The position numbers and the translations under genes are program-made. From Candidatus Poribacteria bacterium (GTDB lineage Bacteria > Poribacteria > WGA-4E > PCPOR2b), in NCBI GenBank assembly GCA_003635265.1, contig PYIZ01000029.1, positions 1 through 64,000 on the forward strand: a stretch of 64,000 bases of DNA, written 5' to 3'. A model generated the notes under the pieces. That model worked only from the letters and a program-made list of their open reading frames with translations. It ran no database searches and was not told the origin of the DNA. Of this stretch, positions 29,671 through 40,119 are shown in pieces (the first letter of the stretch is position 1; each line of letters starts with the position of its first letter).

Positions 29671-31674
29671 ATGGCTAACAACACACAAGAACGTCGAGAA
29701 TTGAGGACACTTCACCCCGAAGATATTGTCGGGCTGAAAGGACTCAGTGGGTCAGTAATCTCGCCTGATGGTAAGTGGGCGGCATTTGTCCGAACCGTTC
29801 CAGTCCTTGAAGTGGAAAAGAGCGAACACCGGGGTCATATTTGGCTGGTTTCAACCGATGGCGGTGAACCGTTCCAGTTGACGAATGGGCCTGATGGAGA
29901 CAGCAATCCGCAATGGTCGCCCGACAGCACGCGACTTGCCTTTGTCTCAAAGCGGGACGGCAAAACGCAGATCTGGATTATTCCAATTGGGGGTGGCGAG
30001 GCAAAGCAACTCACCCATGCGAGCAACGGCGCATCAAATCCGCGATGGTCATCTGACGGAAAACAGATCGCATTTCTGAAGGCTGAGGAGGATAGCGCGG
30101 CTGAAGAGCAGCGGAAGAAAGCCGGGGATGACCGGGTGATCATGGGGACAGATGACTTCAAGCAGCAGCACCTGTGGGTTATTGATGTCGAAATGCTAGA
30201 CGATGAGTCTGAATTGCTCTTTAGTTTGCCGGGAGAGGGGTCAGATGAGAATGTCGATGTGGACAAATCCCAGAGGTTGACAGAAGGGGATTTCCACGTC
30301 AGCGAGCCGTGTTGGTCACCAGATGGGAAGCAGATCGTCTTTATCTCCACACCTTCTCCTAAGGCAGATGATACGATGTTTAACGGCCTTGTTCGCGTTG
30401 TTGGTCTTGAAACGAAGCACGTCCGAAAATTGACAGCGCACACAGGTGGTGAGAGTTCGCCACGCTGGTCACCGAACGGGGAACAGATCGCATACTTGCA
30501 TAGTCCAGCGGGGTATGGCCAGAAAAACCTCCACATCATTTCAGCGGAAGGCGGTGCATCAACAAACCTGACCGCCACCCAGCTCGATCGTAACGCCGAC
30601 CTACCGGTCTGGTCTCCGGACGGAACTACTATCTACTTCATTGCAATGGATCGGGTGCGTTGGCAGCTTTACTCTGCCTCAAAAGCAGAGGGAGAAATTC
30701 GTCAAATCACGCATGGCGATTGTGTCATTGGAGGGATTTCCATCGCCGATGATGGCGATACATTCTTGTGTACTCGCAGTGAGGCACATGCCCCAACGGA
30801 TATTTGGGTTGGTTCTATCCGCACAGGGGGGAGGAAGCAGCTCACGAAACTCAATCCACAACTAGAAAACTTCGCACTCGGTGAAGTACAGGTGATTCAA
30901 TGGCAGAGCAGCGACGGACTTGAGATCGAAGGCTTACTCTGTTTACCCGTTGGCTACGAAGCGGGCAAAAGCTATCCGCTCATTGTTGAGCCACACGGAG
31001 GTCCCCGCAGTTCACGCGATTTGGGATTCAAGCCGACATGGCACTATTTCAGCGGCGAAGGTTTTGCTTACTTTGCCCCGAACTTCCGCGGCGGGGATGG
31101 ATACGGGAACGACTTCGCCACGGCGAACTACAATGATTGGGGTGGTGGTGATTATCAGGACATCATGACAGGCGTTGATTTTCTGATTGAAGGAGGAATT
31201 GCTGATCCTGACCGTCTAATCGTCGGCGGTTCAAGCTACGGCGGCTACATGACAAGTTGGATTATCACCCACACTGATCGCTTCAGAGCCGCTTGTAATG
31301 TTTGTGGCGTCATCAATCTGGTAAGTTTTTATGCACAAACCGATATTCCAAGTTTTATGTCGCTCTACTTTGCAGGTCCTCCATCGCAGAGTTTAGGATT
31401 GTACCGTGAACGGTCACCAATCAACTATGTGGATCACGCCCAAACCCCAACCCTCATCCTGCACGGCGAGGAGGATATCCGAGTTCCTTTGCCACAGTCG
31501 GAGGAGTTCTACGCTGGACTCAAAGCCGCCGGTGTCAACACGGTATTCGTAAAATATCCACGTGAAGGTCATAGCATTGGGGAGCCGCGGCATCAGTTGG
31601 ATATGCTCAAACGCCAGTTGGCGTGGTACAACCAGTACATGACCCATGATGCGAAAGGTGATGAGAGCGCGTGA
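29671..31674 (+). CDS. S9-family prolyl-oligopeptidase-like serine peptidase
   Basis: A 667-residue protein with an N-terminal TolB/PD40-type propeller ('PQWSPDSTRLAFVSKRDGKT', 'PRWSSDGKQIAFLK') and a C-terminal alpha/beta-hydrolase peptidase domain. The catalytic triad is visible: Ser522 in 'GGSSYGGYMTSW', Asp602 in 'LHGEEDIRVP', His634 in 'PREGHSIGEP'. This matches the acylaminoacyl-peptidase (S9C) group, which cuts short peptides. No signal peptide is evident, so it is likely cytoplasmic. It is a single gene on the plus strand with a weak ribosome binding site (AGGAAC). The blades resemble in motif, but not in sequence identity, those of the secreted array at 1-5.3 kb. Confidence 0.9.
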   Translation: MANNTQERRELRTLHPEDIVGLKGLSGSVISPDGKWAAFVRTVPVLEVEKSEHRGHIWLVSTDGGEPFQLTNGPDGDSNPQWSPDSTRLAFVSKRDGKTQIWIIPIGGGEAKQLTHASNGASNPRWSSDGKQIAFLKAEEDSAAEEQRKKAGDDRVIMGTDDFKQQHLWVIDVEMLDDESELLFSLPGEGSDENVDVDKSQRLTEGDFHVSEPCWSPDGKQIVFISTPSPKADDTMFNGLVRVVGLETKHVRKLTAHTGGESSPRWSPNGEQIAYLHSPAGYGQKNLHIISAEGGASTNLTATQLDRNADLPVWSPDGTTIYFIAMDRVRWQLYSASKAEGEIRQITHGDCVIGGISIADDGDTFLCTRSEAHAPTDIWVGSIRTGGRKQLTKLNPQLENFALGEVQVIQWQSSDGLEIEGLLCLPVGYEAGKSYPLIVEPHGGPRSSRDLGFKPTWHYFSGEGFAYFAPNFRGGDGYGNDFATANYNDWGGGDYQDIMTGVDFLIEGGIADPDRLIVGGSSYGGYMTSWIITHTDRFRAACNVCGVINLVSFYAQTDIPSFMSLYFAGPPSQSLGLYRERSPINYVDHAQTPTLILHGEEDIRVPLPQSEEFYAGLKAAGVNTVFVKYPREGHSIGEPRHQLDMLKRQLAWYNQYMTHDAKGDESA

Positions 31675-31714
31675 CAGGCACGCTCCAACATGTTCTCATT
31701 TTTTCATTTTCCAG

Positions 31715-31744
31715 TTGACCGTTTTTTGTCAGTGGGGGTATAAT
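31715..31744 (+). promoter_or_regulatory. Sigma-70-type promoter for the acyl-CoA synthetase gene
   Basis: TTGACC (31,715-31,720) and TATAAT (31,739-31,744) are separated by 18 bases, a close match to consensus. Transcription would start near 31,751, leaving a leader of about 125 bases before the ATG at 31,875. Confidence 0.65.
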
Positions 31745-31874
31745 GCACATCAGCGCGAAAGGTGACGGACAAGTACCGTGAGTGTTGAAATTCGTTTGGT
31801 AACCGAAATAGACGAAGGATAACTGTGGGAACGTTTCCCGGATTCCCCATAATCCGAATACAAGGAGGTTGGTC

Positions 31875-33668
31875 ATGGACACAATAACAATCAACCAAAT
31901 GGTACAAAATACCATACAGCAACATGGTTCAGAGACTGCGCTATCTCACAAAGTTGACAAGGAGTATCAGGACATCTCTTATGCAACACTCGCAGAACGG
32001 ATCAAGCACTTCTGTTTAGGGTTGACTGAACTTGGCTTGCAGAAAGGAGATCGTGTTGCACTGCTATCAGAAAACCGTCCGGAGTGGGCAATAACCGACC
32101 TAGCAATTCTCGCCGGCGGTGGGGTCACTGTGCCGATGTTTTCGACGCTGACGTCCGCACAGGTGGAATACATCGTCAGAGATTCGGGGGCAAAGATCCT
32201 CTGCGTATCCAGCGAGAGGCAGCTGCAGAAGATCAAGGACTGGGATGAAAATGTCCCAACGAATCTTCAGCACATTGTTATTTTTGATGAGCTGCAAGAC
32301 GACGCGGTACGCACATTCGATCAGGTGTGTGAGCTTGGGCAGGGGGTTGAAAACGGGGATCAGGTCTACCAGCAAGCTAACGAGGTTGTTACACCGGACG
32401 ACCTCGCCTCGATTATTTATACCTCCGGCACAACAGGTGATCCGAAGGGCGCGATGCTGACCCACAGCAATTTTATGTCGAATATACAGGTAATCACGGG
32501 GATTGTAACACTTACCCCTGAGGACGTTTTCCTCTCTTTCCTCCCACTGTCCCATGTGTTTGAACGGATGGGAGGGCACTATCTGCCACTTAGCAGTGGC
32601 GCGACAATTGCGTATGCCGAAAGCCCGTTTACTATCCGCCAGAATATGCAAGAGGTCCGCCCGACAATTATGATGAGTGTGCCTCGTGTCTATGAGGCGA
32701 TGCACGAAAGAATTCTCAACTCTGTCAAGGAAGGTTCTCCGACTAAACAGAAGATCTTTCACTGGAGTGTCGGTGTCGGATCGAAGGTGAGTCAAGCCAT
32801 CCAACAGAAGCAGAAGCCCTCCTCCATGTTATCGCTGAAGGCGAGTATTGCCAATAAACTAGTTTTTGAAAAACTTAAGGCGGTAACCGGCGGCCGGCTG
32901 CGTTTCTTCGTCTCCGGCGGTGCTCCCTTGTCGAAAGCGATTGCGGAGTTCTTCCATGCAGCGGGTATCCTCATCCTTGAAGGATATGGTCTGACAGAAA
33001 CCTCACCCGTTATCTCTGTGAATAGACCCAACCAGTGGAAGTTCGGCACTGTGGGTCCCATGATTCCGGGCATAGAGGTGAAAATTGCTGAAGATGGTGA
33101 GATTCTGTCACGCGGACCGCACATCATGCAAGGCTATTTCAACAAACCGTCAGATACAGCGGAAGCTATCGACGCAGATGGGTGGTTTCACACGGGTGAC
33201 ATCGGGGAAATTGACGAGGAAGGATTTCTGACAATAACAGACCGTAAGAAAAATCTCCTCATCCTGTCCAATGGGAAAAATGTCGCGCCGCAACCTATTG
33301 AGAATCAACTCAAGCAGAGTCCGTATATCAGCGAAATCATGCTGCTCGGTGATCAGCGTAGAACTATTACTGCGCTTATTGTGCCGAATTATGATGCGAT
33401 TAAGGAGTTCGCGGCAGAGCAGCAGCTTGAAGCCGAGGACATTCCTGCACTCCTCCAGACGCAAGAGGTTCAACGGTTGATTCGGGGTGAGATTAACCAA
33501 TATTCACCCGATTATGCTGACTTTGAGCGGGTTCGGATGTTCACTTTAATGGAAAAGGAGTTCTCGGAAGAATCGGGAGAGATGACGCCGACGCTCAAGT
33601 TGAAACGATCGGTCATTATGGAGAACCATAAAGCAACAATTGACCAGATGTATGGCGACGATGGTTAG
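31875..33668 (+). CDS. Long-chain fatty acid-CoA ligase (AMP-forming)
   Basis: A 597-residue adenylate-forming enzyme. Motifs: the P-loop-like 'IIYTSGTTGDPKGAMLTHSN', 'GYGLTETSPVISVN' (A5), 'DGWFHTGDIGEIDEEGFLTI' (A7) and 'DRKKNLLILSNGKNVAPQPIE' (A8/linker), all diagnostic of long-chain acyl-CoA synthetases of the FadD15 type. It activates fatty acids to acyl-CoA with ATP. The start is the ATG with AAGGAGG six bases upstream; the in-frame TTG two codons earlier sits on that site. Length is typical. No other lipid genes are adjacent, and it has its own promoter. Confidence 0.93.
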   Translation: MDTITINQMVQNTIQQHGSETALSHKVDKEYQDISYATLAERIKHFCLGLTELGLQKGDRVALLSENRPEWAITDLAILAGGGVTVPMFSTLTSAQVEYIVRDSGAKILCVSSERQLQKIKDWDENVPTNLQHIVIFDELQDDAVRTFDQVCELGQGVENGDQVYQQANEVVTPDDLASIIYTSGTTGDPKGAMLTHSNFMSNIQVITGIVTLTPEDVFLSFLPLSHVFERMGGHYLPLSSGATIAYAESPFTIRQNMQEVRPTIMMSVPRVYEAMHERILNSVKEGSPTKQKIFHWSVGVGSKVSQAIQQKQKPSSMLSLKASIANKLVFEKLKAVTGGRLRFFVSGGAPLSKAIAEFFHAAGILILEGYGLTETSPVISVNRPNQWKFGTVGPMIPGIEVKIAEDGEILSRGPHIMQGYFNKPSDTAEAIDADGWFHTGDIGEIDEEGFLTITDRKKNLLILSNGKNVAPQPIENQLKQSPYISEIMLLGDQRRTITALIVPNYDAIKEFAAEQQLEAEDIPALLQTQEVQRLIRGEINQYSPDYADFERVRMFTLMEKEFSEESGEMTPTLKLKRSVIMENHKATIDQMYGDDG

Positions 33669-36549: not shown

Positions 36550-37803
36550 TTACTCGGTACGGAGTGCCTCGATCGGCGATAGCTTCATCGCTTTTACGGC
36601 TGGATACAACCCAAAGCCAAGACCTATCACCGCAGAAAATGACACCGAAATCAGTACCCACCGTGCCGAGAGAACCGCAGGCCATTCGGGAACAATCTTG
36701 ACAATCTTGACAGCCAGATGCGCCATCCCCTTACCGGCAAAGGTGCCGAATCCAACCCCTATTAGTCCACCAATACTGCACATGGCAACAGATTCAATCA
36801 AAAACTGAAGCAGAATATCCAAACTTTTTGCCCCTAATGCCTTTCGCAATCCGATTTCCCGTGTGCGTTCCGCCACAGCAACCAACATCATATTCATGAT
36901 GCCAATCCCGCCAACAAGGAGTGAAAATCCGGCGATACTTCCCAAAGCGATTTTAATAACCTTGCTAATTTTTCCCAGTTTTGCCACACCGGCTCGTATG
37001 TCAAAAATGACAAAGAAATCATCTTGGTTGTTGTGCCGTTTCCGCATAACCGATTTAACCTCTTCAATTGCTTTTGGAATAACCTCTACGGTGTGTGCTT
37101 TAACCGCAATCTGCAAAATCCGATCGTTGCCAGTGAATCGTTGCTGAGTTGTTGTGATCGGAATAAAAACGAGCTCATCAAAACTAGAACCAAATTTAAG
37201 ACTTCGCCCGCGGGGCACCAGCGTGCCAATAACAGTGAACCGCTCTCTATTTCCAATTTTAATCTCTTTTCCGAGTGGTGATGCTACACCAAACAACTCC
37301 GCAGCCACACTCGATCCGAGCACAACAACTTTCGTAGCGTTGTCAACGTCTTGATCGGAAATAAACCGCCCTTCGCGCAAGTTCCAGTCCATCGCCGCGG
37401 TATAGGCAGCATTCACACCGTTATAGCCGCCACGAGTGTTCGCGCCGCTTGGGGCTTGAATCAACACACCGGTCCAATTCGGAATACGCGGGGTGACCAC
37501 CTTAACGGAGGGACACTCCGCCTCAATTGCCAAGACATCGCCGTAGTTAAAGTGTTCCCCACTCCGAATCGGCACCCGGCGACCATTAACCCACTTTGAG
37601 GTGGTGCGATACAACGTGAATTGGTTAATACCACCAATCTTTTGAAGATCTTGAAGGATAATTTCTTTGGCACCATCACCAATGGCTATCATCGCAATCA
37701 CAGCCGCAATGCCGATGATAATACCAAGCATCATCAGCAAGGAGCGTAGTTTGTTTGAGTAGATCGCTTTTATCCCAACGGATAGCCCATCACTTAGACG
37801 CAT
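36550..37803 (-). CDS. MacB/FtsX-type ABC transporter permease (orphan)
   Basis: A 417-residue permease with the MacB layout: a first transmembrane helix near residues 20-42 ('KLRSLLMMLGIIIGIAAVI'), a periplasmic MacB-PCD domain ('TKVVVLGSSVAAELFG', 'GKEIKIGNRERFTVIG'), then three helices in the C-terminal FtsX domain ('RTREIGLRKALGAKSLDIL', 'FSAVIGLGFGLYPAVKAMKL'). Such permeases work with an ATPase and often an adaptor to export peptides or lipoproteins mechanically. Neither partner gene is adjacent, so it presumably uses an ATPase encoded elsewhere. The ATG has only a weak site. Confidence 0.85.
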   Translation of the reverse strand: MRLSDGLSVGIKAIYSNKLRSLLMMLGIIIGIAAVIAMIAIGDGAKEIILQDLQKIGGINQFTLYRTTSKWVNGRRVPIRSGEHFNYGDVLAIEAECPSVKVVTPRIPNWTGVLIQAPSGANTRGGYNGVNAAYTAAMDWNLREGRFISDQDVDNATKVVVLGSSVAAELFGVASPLGKEIKIGNRERFTVIGTLVPRGRSLKFGSSFDELVFIPITTTQQRFTGNDRILQIAVKAHTVEVIPKAIEEVKSVMRKRHNNQDDFFVIFDIRAGVAKLGKISKVIKIALGSIAGFSLLVGGIGIMNMMLVAVAERTREIGLRKALGAKSLDILLQFLIESVAMCSIGGLIGVGFGTFAGKGMAHLAVKIVKIVPEWPAVLSARWVLISVSFSAVIGLGFGLYPAVKAMKLSPIEALRTE

Positions 37804-37937: not shown

Positions 37938-38240
37938 TTATACATTATCATGAAATAACGAAAATGTGGTTGATTCGACGGAGGACACCGATGTCTCAAA
38001 ATCCGGGAACAGCCAGAGTTGATTCGTCTCATCTGCCACCGGGGTATCCTCAACGGCTGGTTCGTCAGATAGAATCGCTGGGGTGTCCCATAAATCCACC
38101 TGCTCTACTGTCGCCACGTTCCGATTTGATGCGATACGGGCGTAGATACGGGCGCGTTGCTCGGAAGAGATCGCTTGCTGGGCGAAGGCTTCGCGCATTA
38201 ATTGTATGAGTGTGTCGGTAAACAAATCTGTTTGCATCAT
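37938..38240 (-). CDS. 100-residue protein with three sliding-clamp-binding-like motifs
   Basis: A small acidic protein without a recognised fold. It contains QTDLF (residues 3-7), QVDLW (47-51) and QLWLF (74-78); the first and third fit the bacterial beta-clamp-binding pentapeptide (QL[S/D]LF-like), and the second resembles the QLPLW form. Between them are a helical segment ('TLIQLMREAFAQQAISSEQR') and a disordered acidic stretch. The gene overlaps the end of a sliding-clamp gene by ATGA, so the two are translationally coupled. I infer that the protein binds the clamp at several pockets, perhaps as a regulator or tether. It has no recognised homolog to me. Confidence 0.75.
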   Translation of the reverse strand: MMQTDLFTDTLIQLMREAFAQQAISSEQRARIYARIASNRNVATVEQVDLWDTPAILSDEPAVEDTPVADETNQLWLFPDFETSVSSVESTTFSLFHDNV

Positions 38241-39358
38241 CTCAAAGGCATAACAAGATAACGAAAGTCTTGTGCTAAATCAAGAAGTATCGGTGATAAA
38301 CGGTTCGTGCTTGGGTTCAGCCAGAGTGTAACATCGGTTGCATCGGTATGTAGGAGTGCTTCTTCAGAGAACCAGCTATCAATGGTTGTGGCTGCATCTG
38401 GACCTTCATACTGAATTGGTACACTCGCTTCCGATTTTCCCAAGTGGGTGTTGTTGCTAACAGTCAACTGTCCATTGCTGAAACGAAATTCGGTGCGGTG
38501 GTTGGGATTATCTTCCACATGAATAATTCGGAGTGCCCAGAGCAACTTTTCACGATTCACCTTAACCTCTAAAGGGGCGGCTGCACCTTCCAAAACTGAT
38601 AGATAATTTGGGAAATTTTCTTGTGGCAAGAGACACCTTAACACAACATCTTCAGCCTCAAAACCCACAGCGTTTTCACCGAAACGTAGTCGGCAGACCC
38701 CTGGCTCTAAGGATTCTATCAGGTCGACCATCTTTACGCAGGCGTTATAAGCCATTGCTCGCTTCGGGACTGGCGCATCCGTGTTCGCTAACGCACGCGC
38801 GGAGAGCAACGTCAACACCGCCATCCGTTTCCCATCGGTGGTCACGATTCGGTATTCACCATCATGCGGATGAAAAAGTGCCCCCGTAATCCCAGCGCGT
38901 CGGTCCGCCCCTTCTGCGTCTGACGGTTTTTCTGATGCGAACAAAACAGTATTCAGTGCCTTCCCGAACTGCGACGCTGAAATTTCATACTCGTGTACAT
39001 CTGTCGGTTCTTCAAGTGCCGTATTCAGACCTTTTTCGGCGTATGTACGCACGACGTGTTGATGCTGCTCGCCTTCAATGTCCAGACACCCATGCCTTTC
39101 GTGGTGACTGAACTGCAATGTCTCGTTGGTCGTATGTTCACAAATACGCGGCAGTGCATCTGCGGAAATGGTTGCCGTACCGGGGGCTTCAACTTCAGCT
39201 GGAGTTGTGTAGTCAATACAGAATTTTCCATCGTCAGTGTCACATCGGAACTGCAATTGTGCCGCTTGCGCTGTTATCGACAGGTGCGTTTTCGGTTCAT
39301 CAAGTTTCAAAAGTGCTAATGCCCGTTTTAACGTGGCAGCATTACAGGTGAATTTCAT
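38237..39358 (-). CDS. DNA polymerase III beta sliding clamp (DnaN-type), divergent
   Basis: A 373-residue three-domain clamp, of normal length. Landmarks of the ligand pocket are kept: 'YRIVTTDGKRMAVL' in domain 2, 'LPQENFPNYLSVL', and the C-terminal 'YLVMPLR'. Domain 1 is atypical: the usual 'LPIL-x-N-x-L' motif is missing, replaced by 'LDEPKTHLSITAQ'. It forms the ring that holds polymerases on DNA. It is not next to dnaA, recF or gyrB; instead it follows an ECF sigma gene and overlaps a small clamp-motif gene. It is either the genome's main clamp in an unusual place or a second, specialised clamp. The start follows GGGAGGAACCG. Confidence 0.85.
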   Translation of the reverse strand: MKFTCNAATLKRALALLKLDEPKTHLSITAQAAQLQFRCDTDDGKFCIDYTTPAEVEAPGTATISADALPRICEHTTNETLQFSHHERHGCLDIEGEQHQHVVRTYAEKGLNTALEEPTDVHEYEISASQFGKALNTVLFASEKPSDAEGADRRAGITGALFHPHDGEYRIVTTDGKRMAVLTLLSARALANTDAPVPKRAMAYNACVKMVDLIESLEPGVCRLRFGENAVGFEAEDVVLRCLLPQENFPNYLSVLEGAAAPLEVKVNREKLLWALRIIHVEDNPNHRTEFRFSNGQLTVSNNTHLGKSEASVPIQYEGPDAATTIDSWFSEEALLHTDATDVTLWLNPSTNRLSPILLDLAQDFRYLVMPLR

Positions 39359-39443
39359 CGGTTCCTCCCTACCCACAGGACAGGCATCGGGAACTGCCTT
39401 TTCGCCAGCGATGCCCTATCGGCTGTGTTTTTCCAGTCCAACT

Positions 39444-40001
39444 TTAGAACAGATCCTTGAGCGATGTGTTCCGTTGTTTCAATAACCGTAGCACTTCATC
39501 GCGCAAGGCTTTTCGCGCACGTTGCCGAAGAGATTTCACAGCGGTCTCGCTCCGTTGGATGATTTCTGCAATTTCTCGATTCGGTGTGCCCTCCAATTCA
39601 CCCAACACCAGTACAGTCCGGTCAATCGGGCGCAATTGAAGTAGTGCCGCTTGCAAAAATTCTGCGCTTTCGGAGCGAATTAACCCTTTGAGTGGAGTTT
39701 CCATCGAAGTTGCCGGGCTGGTAAACACCTGCGTCATCTCGTCCACAGTCGTTATGTCCAATGGAATCGTCCCGTATCGCTGACGCTGGCGCATCAGGTC
39801 AATGCACCCATTATATGCGATGCGAAAAAGCCACGCCCGGACAGATGCAGGGTCTAGCAATTCAGACCAGCTTTGGTACGCTCGCAGAAAAGTCTCGGCG
39901 GTCATATCCTCGGCATCCGTTGGATCTCCCAGCAGCCGCAGAATGAATCGATAGATAACATCAACATGTAATTCATACGCTTCGGTGAATGATGCCTCCA
40001 C
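39444..40001 (-). CDS. ECF-type RNA polymerase sigma factor
   Basis: A 185-residue sigma-70 family protein with only regions 2 and 4. Region 2: 'VIYRFILRLLGDPTDAEDMT', 'ETFLRAYQSW', 'RAWLFRIAYNGCIDLMRQRQ'. Region 4: 'LRPIDRTVLVLGELEGTPN', 'REIAEIIQRSETAVKSLRQRA', the DNA-binding helix-turn-helix. The start is GTG, preceded by CGAGG. No anti-sigma gene follows; instead the sliding clamp gene begins 85 bases downstream. The operon could let the sigma factor control clamp supply, but autoregulation is not shown. Confidence 0.9.
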   Translation of the reverse strand: MEASFTEAYELHVDVIYRFILRLLGDPTDAEDMTAETFLRAYQSWSELLDPASVRAWLFRIAYNGCIDLMRQRQRYGTIPLDITTVDEMTQVFTSPATSMETPLKGLIRSESAEFLQAALLQLRPIDRTVLVLGELEGTPNREIAEIIQRSETAVKSLRQRARKALRDEVLRLLKQRNTSLKDLF

Positions 40002-40087
40002 AAATACAGTACCTCGTCGGCTTGTGTTTTCAGGATATTATGACGAAGAAAACGGGATCAGGCATCGAAAATAATGATGAAACGCAA

Positions 40088-40119
40088 AAGGGGATTCCCA
40101 ATCTGTTGAGAATCCCCTT
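40088..40119 (-). terminator. Candidate terminator hairpin upstream of the sigma gene
   Basis: AAGGGGATTC and GAATCCCCTT form a perfect 10-bp stem with a 12-base loop. On the minus strand it is followed by TTTTGCG. It would end the transcript of the gene group 40,168-48,647 and isolate the sigma/clamp operon. Confidence 0.55.

Follow-up and report, generated by a model that had tools for sequence, protein, structure and literature searches.

A conserved Poribacteria operon of an ECF sigma factor, a divergent sliding clamp and a small protein, and its possible relation to clamp-tethered transcription

Late transcription of bacteriophage T4 is the described system that comes closest to the locus reported here. 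There, RNA polymerase is tethered to the sliding clamp gp45 by the sigma factor gp55 and the coactivator gp33, both of which bind the clamp with their C-terminal tails; gp33 lowers basal transcription, and its own contact with the clamp is required for activation (PMC7892883, PMC2988020). A 2010 review calls it puzzling that such a direct coupling of transcription to replication should be limited to T4 and perhaps its relatives, other instances not having been found (PMC2988020), and a 2021 structure paper expects further instances in nature (PMC7892883). Our search of the open-access literature retrieved the T4 system, no bacterial sigma-clamp system and no sigma::clamp fusion architecture, and a search for clamp terms in passages of two reviews on extracytoplasmic function (ECF) sigma factors (PMC8999054, PMC8103513) found none named there. 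Here, we analyzed a stretch of 64,000 nucleotides (in the following, the window), which is part of contig 29 of a 5.3 Mb assembly of Candidatus Poribacteria. At 37938-40001 the window contains three co-oriented open reading frames (ORFs) on the minus strand, which encode an ECF sigma factor, a divergent sliding clamp and a 100-residue protein. Comparison across genomes establishes that the three genes form a conserved, predicted operon with an ECF-like promoter upstream, and the genomic coupling of sigma factor and clamp is well supported. Our reading is that they constitute a dedicated sigma-clamp system for clamp-tethered transcription, in which the small protein would act as a bridge in a T4-like manner that was reached independently; we assign this reading a probability of about 50%.

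The likeness to T4 lies in the set of components, since both systems combine a factor of the sigma family with a sliding clamp and a protein of ~100 residues, and in the tails, since the motifs of the window small protein and the degenerate DLF end of the sigma factor, both predicted to bind the clamp, would correspond to the tails on gp33 and gp55. Several differences stand beside this. Whereas gp45 is a PCNA-like trimer, the window clamp is of the bacterial DnaN type, and whereas gp55 lacks a normal region 4, regions 2 and 4 are both present in the window sigma factor. The T4 genes are scattered, but those of the Poribacteria are organized as an operon or a fusion. Moreover, the system described here is cellular and not viral, and no relation to T4 in sequence was found, no search aimed at one having been made.

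The comparison set comprised 84 Poribacteria genomes (genomes, families and loci are denoted by G, f and L numbers), all of which (58 + 26) were searched for clamps; they are metagenome-assembled genomes (MAGs) and incomplete, so that absences are soft. Outside Poribacteria, the survey covered plasmids, phages and viral contigs. One scan of genome contigs yielded a single locus, itself from Poribacteria, and the closest named record is the clamp of the Candidatus Poribacteria MAG JAJECO010000084.1, which is 85% identical to the window clamp. The complete trio in the order sigma-clamp-small protein occurs in 5 of the 84 genomes (G000, G003, G006, G012, and G061), which span the three families f1, f2, and f5. 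A profile search with the small protein across the 84 genomes identified the first four of these together with a fragment in G009, while the distant trio of G061 (f5), which has the same order, was reached through the clamp search. In G060 (f5), where the contig starts within the clamp gene, clamp and small protein are present, and G069 has a clamp fragment only. At the G009 locus (L039 9483-10190, minus strand), the promoter-like site and the start of the sigma gene are still present, but the latter runs into the small-gene tail; we therefore regard this locus as the remnant of an operon that was lost by internal deletion. The ratio of nonsynonymous to synonymous substitution rates (dN/dS) between G000 and G003 was 0.14 for the sigma factor, 0.24 for the clamp and 0.29 for the small protein, on account of which all three genes look protein-coding and under purifying selection; the respective values between G006 and G012 were 0.09, 0.18, and 0.31. 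The original prediction, made from the window alone, had described three co-oriented genes with an ATGA overlap. These ORFs were recovered, the ATGA shared by clamp stop and small ORF start lies at 38237-38240, and the gene order to which the prediction had drawn attention is that of a conserved unit.

In other genomes of the phylum, sigma factor and clamp are joined in one protein. We identified 44 such sigma::clamp fusions as single ORFs in two batches of 35 (32 full-length) and 9 (7 full-length), whereby 39 have all three clamp domains and 5 are truncated to two. By hand count they are carried by 37 of the 84 genomes, all belonging to family f3 (37 of 58 f3 genomes). In these frames of ~580 residues, a linker connects an ECF sigma part (~1-185) to an entire clamp; for instance, Pfam finds Sigma70_r2 and Sigma70_r4_2 in L075 together with the clamp domains 1, 2, and 3, all of them above cut-off. 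A further fusion, L163, is split by a frameshift. The fusions resemble ECF sigma factors with an extra domain, in which an ECF core is followed by an added domain in one protein, but what is added here is an entire sliding clamp with its three domains. The fusions fall into two classes, A and B, with unrelated sigma domains (L157 and L159 were placed in class B by their sigma scores and not by a tree). In the sigma tree, whose groups were named once the tree had been seen, a single clade of both fusion classes was rejected (approximately unbiased (AU) test, p 3e-6), as was a single clade of all clamp-linked sigma factors (AU p 6e-116). Because neither set forms one clade, sigma factor and clamp were paired on more than one occasion, and a single origin of all pairings is rejected on the sigma tree. 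A viral origin was considered as well and dismissed, since no relative was confirmed when viral contigs were scanned with the clamp alignment A2 and the fusion protein. In tblastn searches, none of the 2915 plasmid records and none of the 227 phage records that matched the fusion covered 80% of it, and the window clamp yielded 5 weak phage records, none of them at 80% coverage.

A second type of operon was found in G023 and G043, where a sigma factor, a zf-HC2 protein of 129-138 residues and a clamp are followed by a second sigma factor and an anti-sigma factor. The zf-HC2 protein preceding the clamp contains the motif QLIMF or QLTMF. Upon shuffling, such a motif arises in 2-3% of sequences of that composition; it is absent from all 18 zf-HC2 paralogs fetched as loci from the phylum and from both second anti-sigma factors at the G023 and G043 loci. 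Judged by sequence, there are thus two unrelated systems in which a small protein that would stand between sigma factor and clamp has a peptide of clamp-binding type. Because of the fusions and this separate operon, we consider the sigma factor to be a physical partner of the clamp.

Table 1. Features of the window operon and its upstream region (all on the minus strand)
Feature	Position	Strand	Basis
Sliding clamp of DnaN type, divergent; 373 aa from the ATG	38237..39358	-	PHROG 947, E 4.6e-30, residues 1-373
Small protein of 100 aa, putative bridge between sigma factor and clamp	37938..38240	-	Homologs adjoin the clamp in 6 genomes
Helical hairpin at the N-terminus of the small protein, residues 6-41	38118..38225	-	AlphaFold2 helices 6-21 and 26-41; common to distant homologs
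Motif 1, QTDLF, residues 3-7	38220..38234	-	Sequence
Motif 2, QVDLW, residues 47-51	38088..38102	-	Sequence
Motif 3, QLWLF, residues 74-78	38007..38021	-	Kept in 4/4 close homologs
ECF sigma factor, 185 aa	39444..40001	-	Pfam Sigma70_r2 59 bits, Sigma70_r4_2 50.3 bits, both above cut-off
Sigma C-terminal tail SLKDLF, degenerate clamp-binding-like	39447..39464	-	D-L-F end in 4/4 close homologs
Promoter-like site GRTGCCT-N14-CGTCATA	40039..40066	-	Upstream alignment, 4 genomes; 37 bases before the sigma start codon

The window clamp is a remote member of its family. Against TIGR00663 it reaches 82.3 bits and thus stays under the cut-off of 137.65 for a DnaN equivalog, while clamps in the PDB match it with E values up to 6.6e-13. 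In Pfam, domain 1 is unmatched and the central domain (domain 2) is the sole match, under the cut-off. For the f5 homolog, whose gene order is the same, all three clamp domains are matched above the cut-off, and because of this a three-domain clamp is the right reading for the window protein too, which places it over its whole length in the DnaN-type clamp superfamily. The original prediction had noted that the usual domain-1 motif is lacking; the clamp is not the genome-typical one. The ATG at 39358 is most likely the start and is favoured over the GTG at 39376, because a ribosome binding site-like sequence, GGGAGGAACC, stands directly before the ATG and is kept in 4/4 close homologs. The peptide-binding cleft was examined at G174, R176, L/M177, M362, and P363, whose roles we take to be those of the E. 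coli clamp. This signature is kept in 4/4 window-type, 2/2 f5-type, 7/7 class B fusion and 26/29 canonical clamps (the fetched set is without G063:C25, a DnaN match in a frame of 465 aa); kept pocket landmarks had been noted in the window clamp at the outset. It is present in none of the 32 full-length class A fusion clamps, where its loss would fit a covalent link that makes a peptide needless. Thus, the window clamp is like canonical DnaN in its full-length match to clamp profiles and in its cleft landmarks, and unlike it in its TIGR00663 score, in the loss of basic pore residues and in its linkage to a sigma factor.

The small protein matched no Pfam or NCBIfam family and only one PHROG (E 0.13), and a profile of six small proteins against solved structures gave no match at E up to 10. 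Its AlphaFold2 model (two-row alignment, mean predicted local distance difference test (pLDDT) score 59.5) was used for helix and disorder only; residues 11-40 of the hairpin reach pLDDT 73-78, and the tail that follows is modelled at low confidence without secondary structure. Motifs 2 and 3 lie in this structureless stretch, so that they are not buried in the model, burial being an outcome that the original prediction had named as counting against it. The bacterial clamp-binding peptide follows a QL[S/D]LF-like pentapeptide consensus. At least three motifs of the form Q..[LMFI][FWY] arose in 30 of 200,000 shuffles of the small protein and in none of 2639 background 100-aa tiles; the three motifs, which had been noticed in the window at the outset, are therefore beyond chance. 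In the four close homologs, motif 1 reads QTDLF, QTDFF, QAELS, and QTDFF (kept in 3/4) and motif 2 QVDLW, QMDFW, GMELW, and GMELW (Q in 2/4). A relation to zf-HC2 anti-sigma factors was looked for and not found: no zf-HC2 match was obtained and the hhalign probability against the zf-HC2 proteins of L091 and L114 was 0.2%. Being encoded with an ECF sigma factor, the small protein is like a class I anti-sigma factor (zf-HC2), of which G023 and G043 have a true representative, but it differs from this class in the missing zf-HC2 match and in its clamp-binding-like motifs.

The sigma factor scores 84.9 bits against TIGR02937 (cut-off 42.9) and has the sigma-70 regions 2 and 4 of the ECF type. Its tail reads SIEDLF in two homologs and NLDDLLK in the f5 homolog of G061. 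A DLF-like end was found in none of 22 other listed ECF sigma factors, two of which are weak controls (L060, probably in the wrong frame, and L056, identical to the second sigma factor of L091), and in none of the 4 sigma factors of the zf-HC2 operon. Upstream of the sigma gene, the sequences of G000, G006, and G012 barely align outside the promoter-like site. The exact site occurs once each in G000, G003, G006, G012, and G009, always preceding the sigma gene, and is absent from G001, G002, and G024, three genomes without the sigma gene, whereby the pattern had been derived from the very sites at which it was then counted. A CGTC-like -10 element is typical of ECF promoters, and the pattern fits an autoregulated ECF operon with a predicted promoter. 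It might be, as the original prediction had it, that the sigma factor drives nothing but its own operon and that the clamp and a multivalent ligand serve replication, repair or the sequestering of partners. The autoregulation-like promoter, with no further exact site in the searched genomes, would suit this, as would several pentapeptides in one small protein and the presence of separate clamps above the TIGR00663 cut-off in G003, G006, G012, G060, and G061. However, such a role leaves the sigma::clamp fusions and the sigma/zf-HC2/clamp operon unexplained, and we consider it improbable. What stands of that prediction is the conserved unit of three genes, the clamp that is not genome-typical and the motifs that are not buried; the sigma factor as the private promoter switch of the unit is not supported in that form.

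For clamp-tethered transcription we infer the steps of tethering, clamp loading and clamp-activated transcription as follows. The clamp loader of the cell would mount the clamp on DNA, and the loaded clamp would hold the sigma-bound RNA polymerase there, whereby the promoters of the sigma factor would fire when and where clamps get loaded in replication or repair. The small protein would bridge the two: with its N-terminal hairpin it would contact the sigma factor or RNA polymerase, while the flexible tail, QLWLF above all, would sit in the clamp cleft. The sigma tail with its DLF could be a second, weak arm to the clamp, and in the fusion proteins a covalent link would take the place of the bridge. 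Extended to the phylum, the proposal is that Poribacteria have a cellular clamp-activated transcription, in which ECF sigma factors are recruited to sliding clamps or are covalently part of them. Gene expression would thereby be wired directly to DNA replication or repair, with no signalling pathway in between, and sigma factor and clamp would have been paired repeatedly, in trans with a bridging protein (window, zf-HC2 operons) and in cis (fusions). This wider proposal is a tentative one, which we hold at somewhat less than even odds.

Several observations weigh against clamp-tethered transcription. R24 and R73 are the basic pore positions (E. coli numbering; the pore-helix boundaries are assumed). 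The window clamps have T/A and D/E there, and the canonical Poribacteria clamps shown have R or K; the net charge of the pore helices is on average -3 in window clamps versus -0.4 in 29 canonical ones. Because basic pore residues are lost and the pore-helix charge is lower, DNA tracking by the window clamp appears doubtful, and a structure model of this clamp was unusable (pLDDT 33, two-row alignment). Alternatively, control of the sigma factor by clamp and small protein might involve no sliding: the clamp would be a DNA-free scaffold or sensor from which the sigma factor is held or released in the manner of anti-sigma partners, and the small protein would be a degenerate anti-sigma factor. 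Besides the lost pore residues, this would be in line with the zf-HC2 anti-sigma type of the small protein in G023 and G043, with the truncated fusions that have two clamp domains (5/44) and with the C-terminal regulatory domains on many ECF sigma factors (PMC8999054). Speaking against such a scaffold are the failure of the window small protein to match zf-HC2 or the anti-sigma factors of the second operon, the retention of all three clamp domains in 39/44 fusions and the peptide cleft kept in the trio clamps; we judge it rather unlikely.

Further points of this kind concern the peptides, the regulon and the origin of the pairing. The distant small proteins (16-20% identity) have the hairpin in common but not the motifs: they lack a QLWLF-type motif, with one loose match (QLELY) in G060 and none in G061. 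The original prediction had tied its case to homologs that keep both the motifs and the linkage with the clamp gene; among these distant homologs the linkage persists and the motifs do not. The sigma tail is without the usual Q of a clamp-binding motif, and the cleft signature is found in 0/2 clamps of the zf-HC2 operon, which from the residues speaks against simple peptide binding there. A wider regulon was looked for and not seen, since sites with one mismatch occur at the level of a reversed-pattern control. In the clamp tree, the fusion clamps sit in two places, yet a single clade is compatible with the data (p 0.48), so that there may have been either two fusions or one fusion and then a sigma swap. 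Finally, these genomes encode numerous ECF sigma factors, and fusions of such factors to other domains, e.g., HTH and PD40, occur as well. Together with the fusions of DnaN to FtsZ and DUF4159 and with the loss of the operon by deletion in G009, this could indicate that domains are freely shuffled, DnaN included, and that sigma factor and clamp are chance neighbours without a common function. Against chance stand the gene order, which is kept across families with proteins down to 16-20% identity, the purifying selection on all three genes and the fusions in 37/84 genomes, which make a merely fortuitous association highly improbable.

Some further observations were made on clamps and on the surroundings of the loci. 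In G000, G010, G023, and G046, the sigma-linked clamps are the only TIGR00663 matches of the assembly; this is probably due to an assembly gap, although a sigma-linked clamp may be the sole clamp there. In family f3, standalone dnaN genes often stand in tandem, e.g., at 30072-31166 and 31466-32560 of G041:C5. A DnaN clamp is fused to FtsZ in one 693-aa ORF (L092 2426-4507, minus strand, G045), which contains three clamp domains, Tubulin and FtsZ_C, all above the Pfam cut-off; L162 1738-3615 (minus strand, G070) is a similarly long clamp ORF, known from its clamp part. DnaN domain 1 alone starts ORFs of ~565 aa at L089 3925-5616 (plus strand, G006) and L090 3363-5069 (plus strand, G008). In L089 the remainder is DUF4159, the clamp domain is under the cut-off, and ribosomal protein genes lie directly downstream. 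Sigma factors closely related to those of the class A fusions are joined to HTH or PD40 instead of a clamp (L076 7252-8451, L084 5789-7042, L085 6079-8001), and they are located 1-2 kb downstream of a sigma::clamp fusion. A MacB-type ABC permease gene (36550-37803, minus strand) comes after the window operon on the same strand; a MacB-family or ABC-2 permease directly adjoins 27 of the 35 first-batch fusions (loci L075-L113), and the other trio genomes have no MacB-type permease as downstream neighbour. Upstream of the promoter site, a strong inverted repeat with arms of ~12 bases (40088-40119), which is present also in G003, is probably the terminator of the preceding gene.

Overall, the mechanism class is known from T4, and the Poribacteria system would be a cellular variant of it with a new protein architecture. 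With the sigma::clamp fusions and the window operon there are concrete cellular candidates, by which the question of whether such coupling is restricted to T4 becomes testable with three small genes. By analogy, some Poribacteria may turn genes on with a sliding ring, a way of activation so far described for T4-type bacterial viruses.

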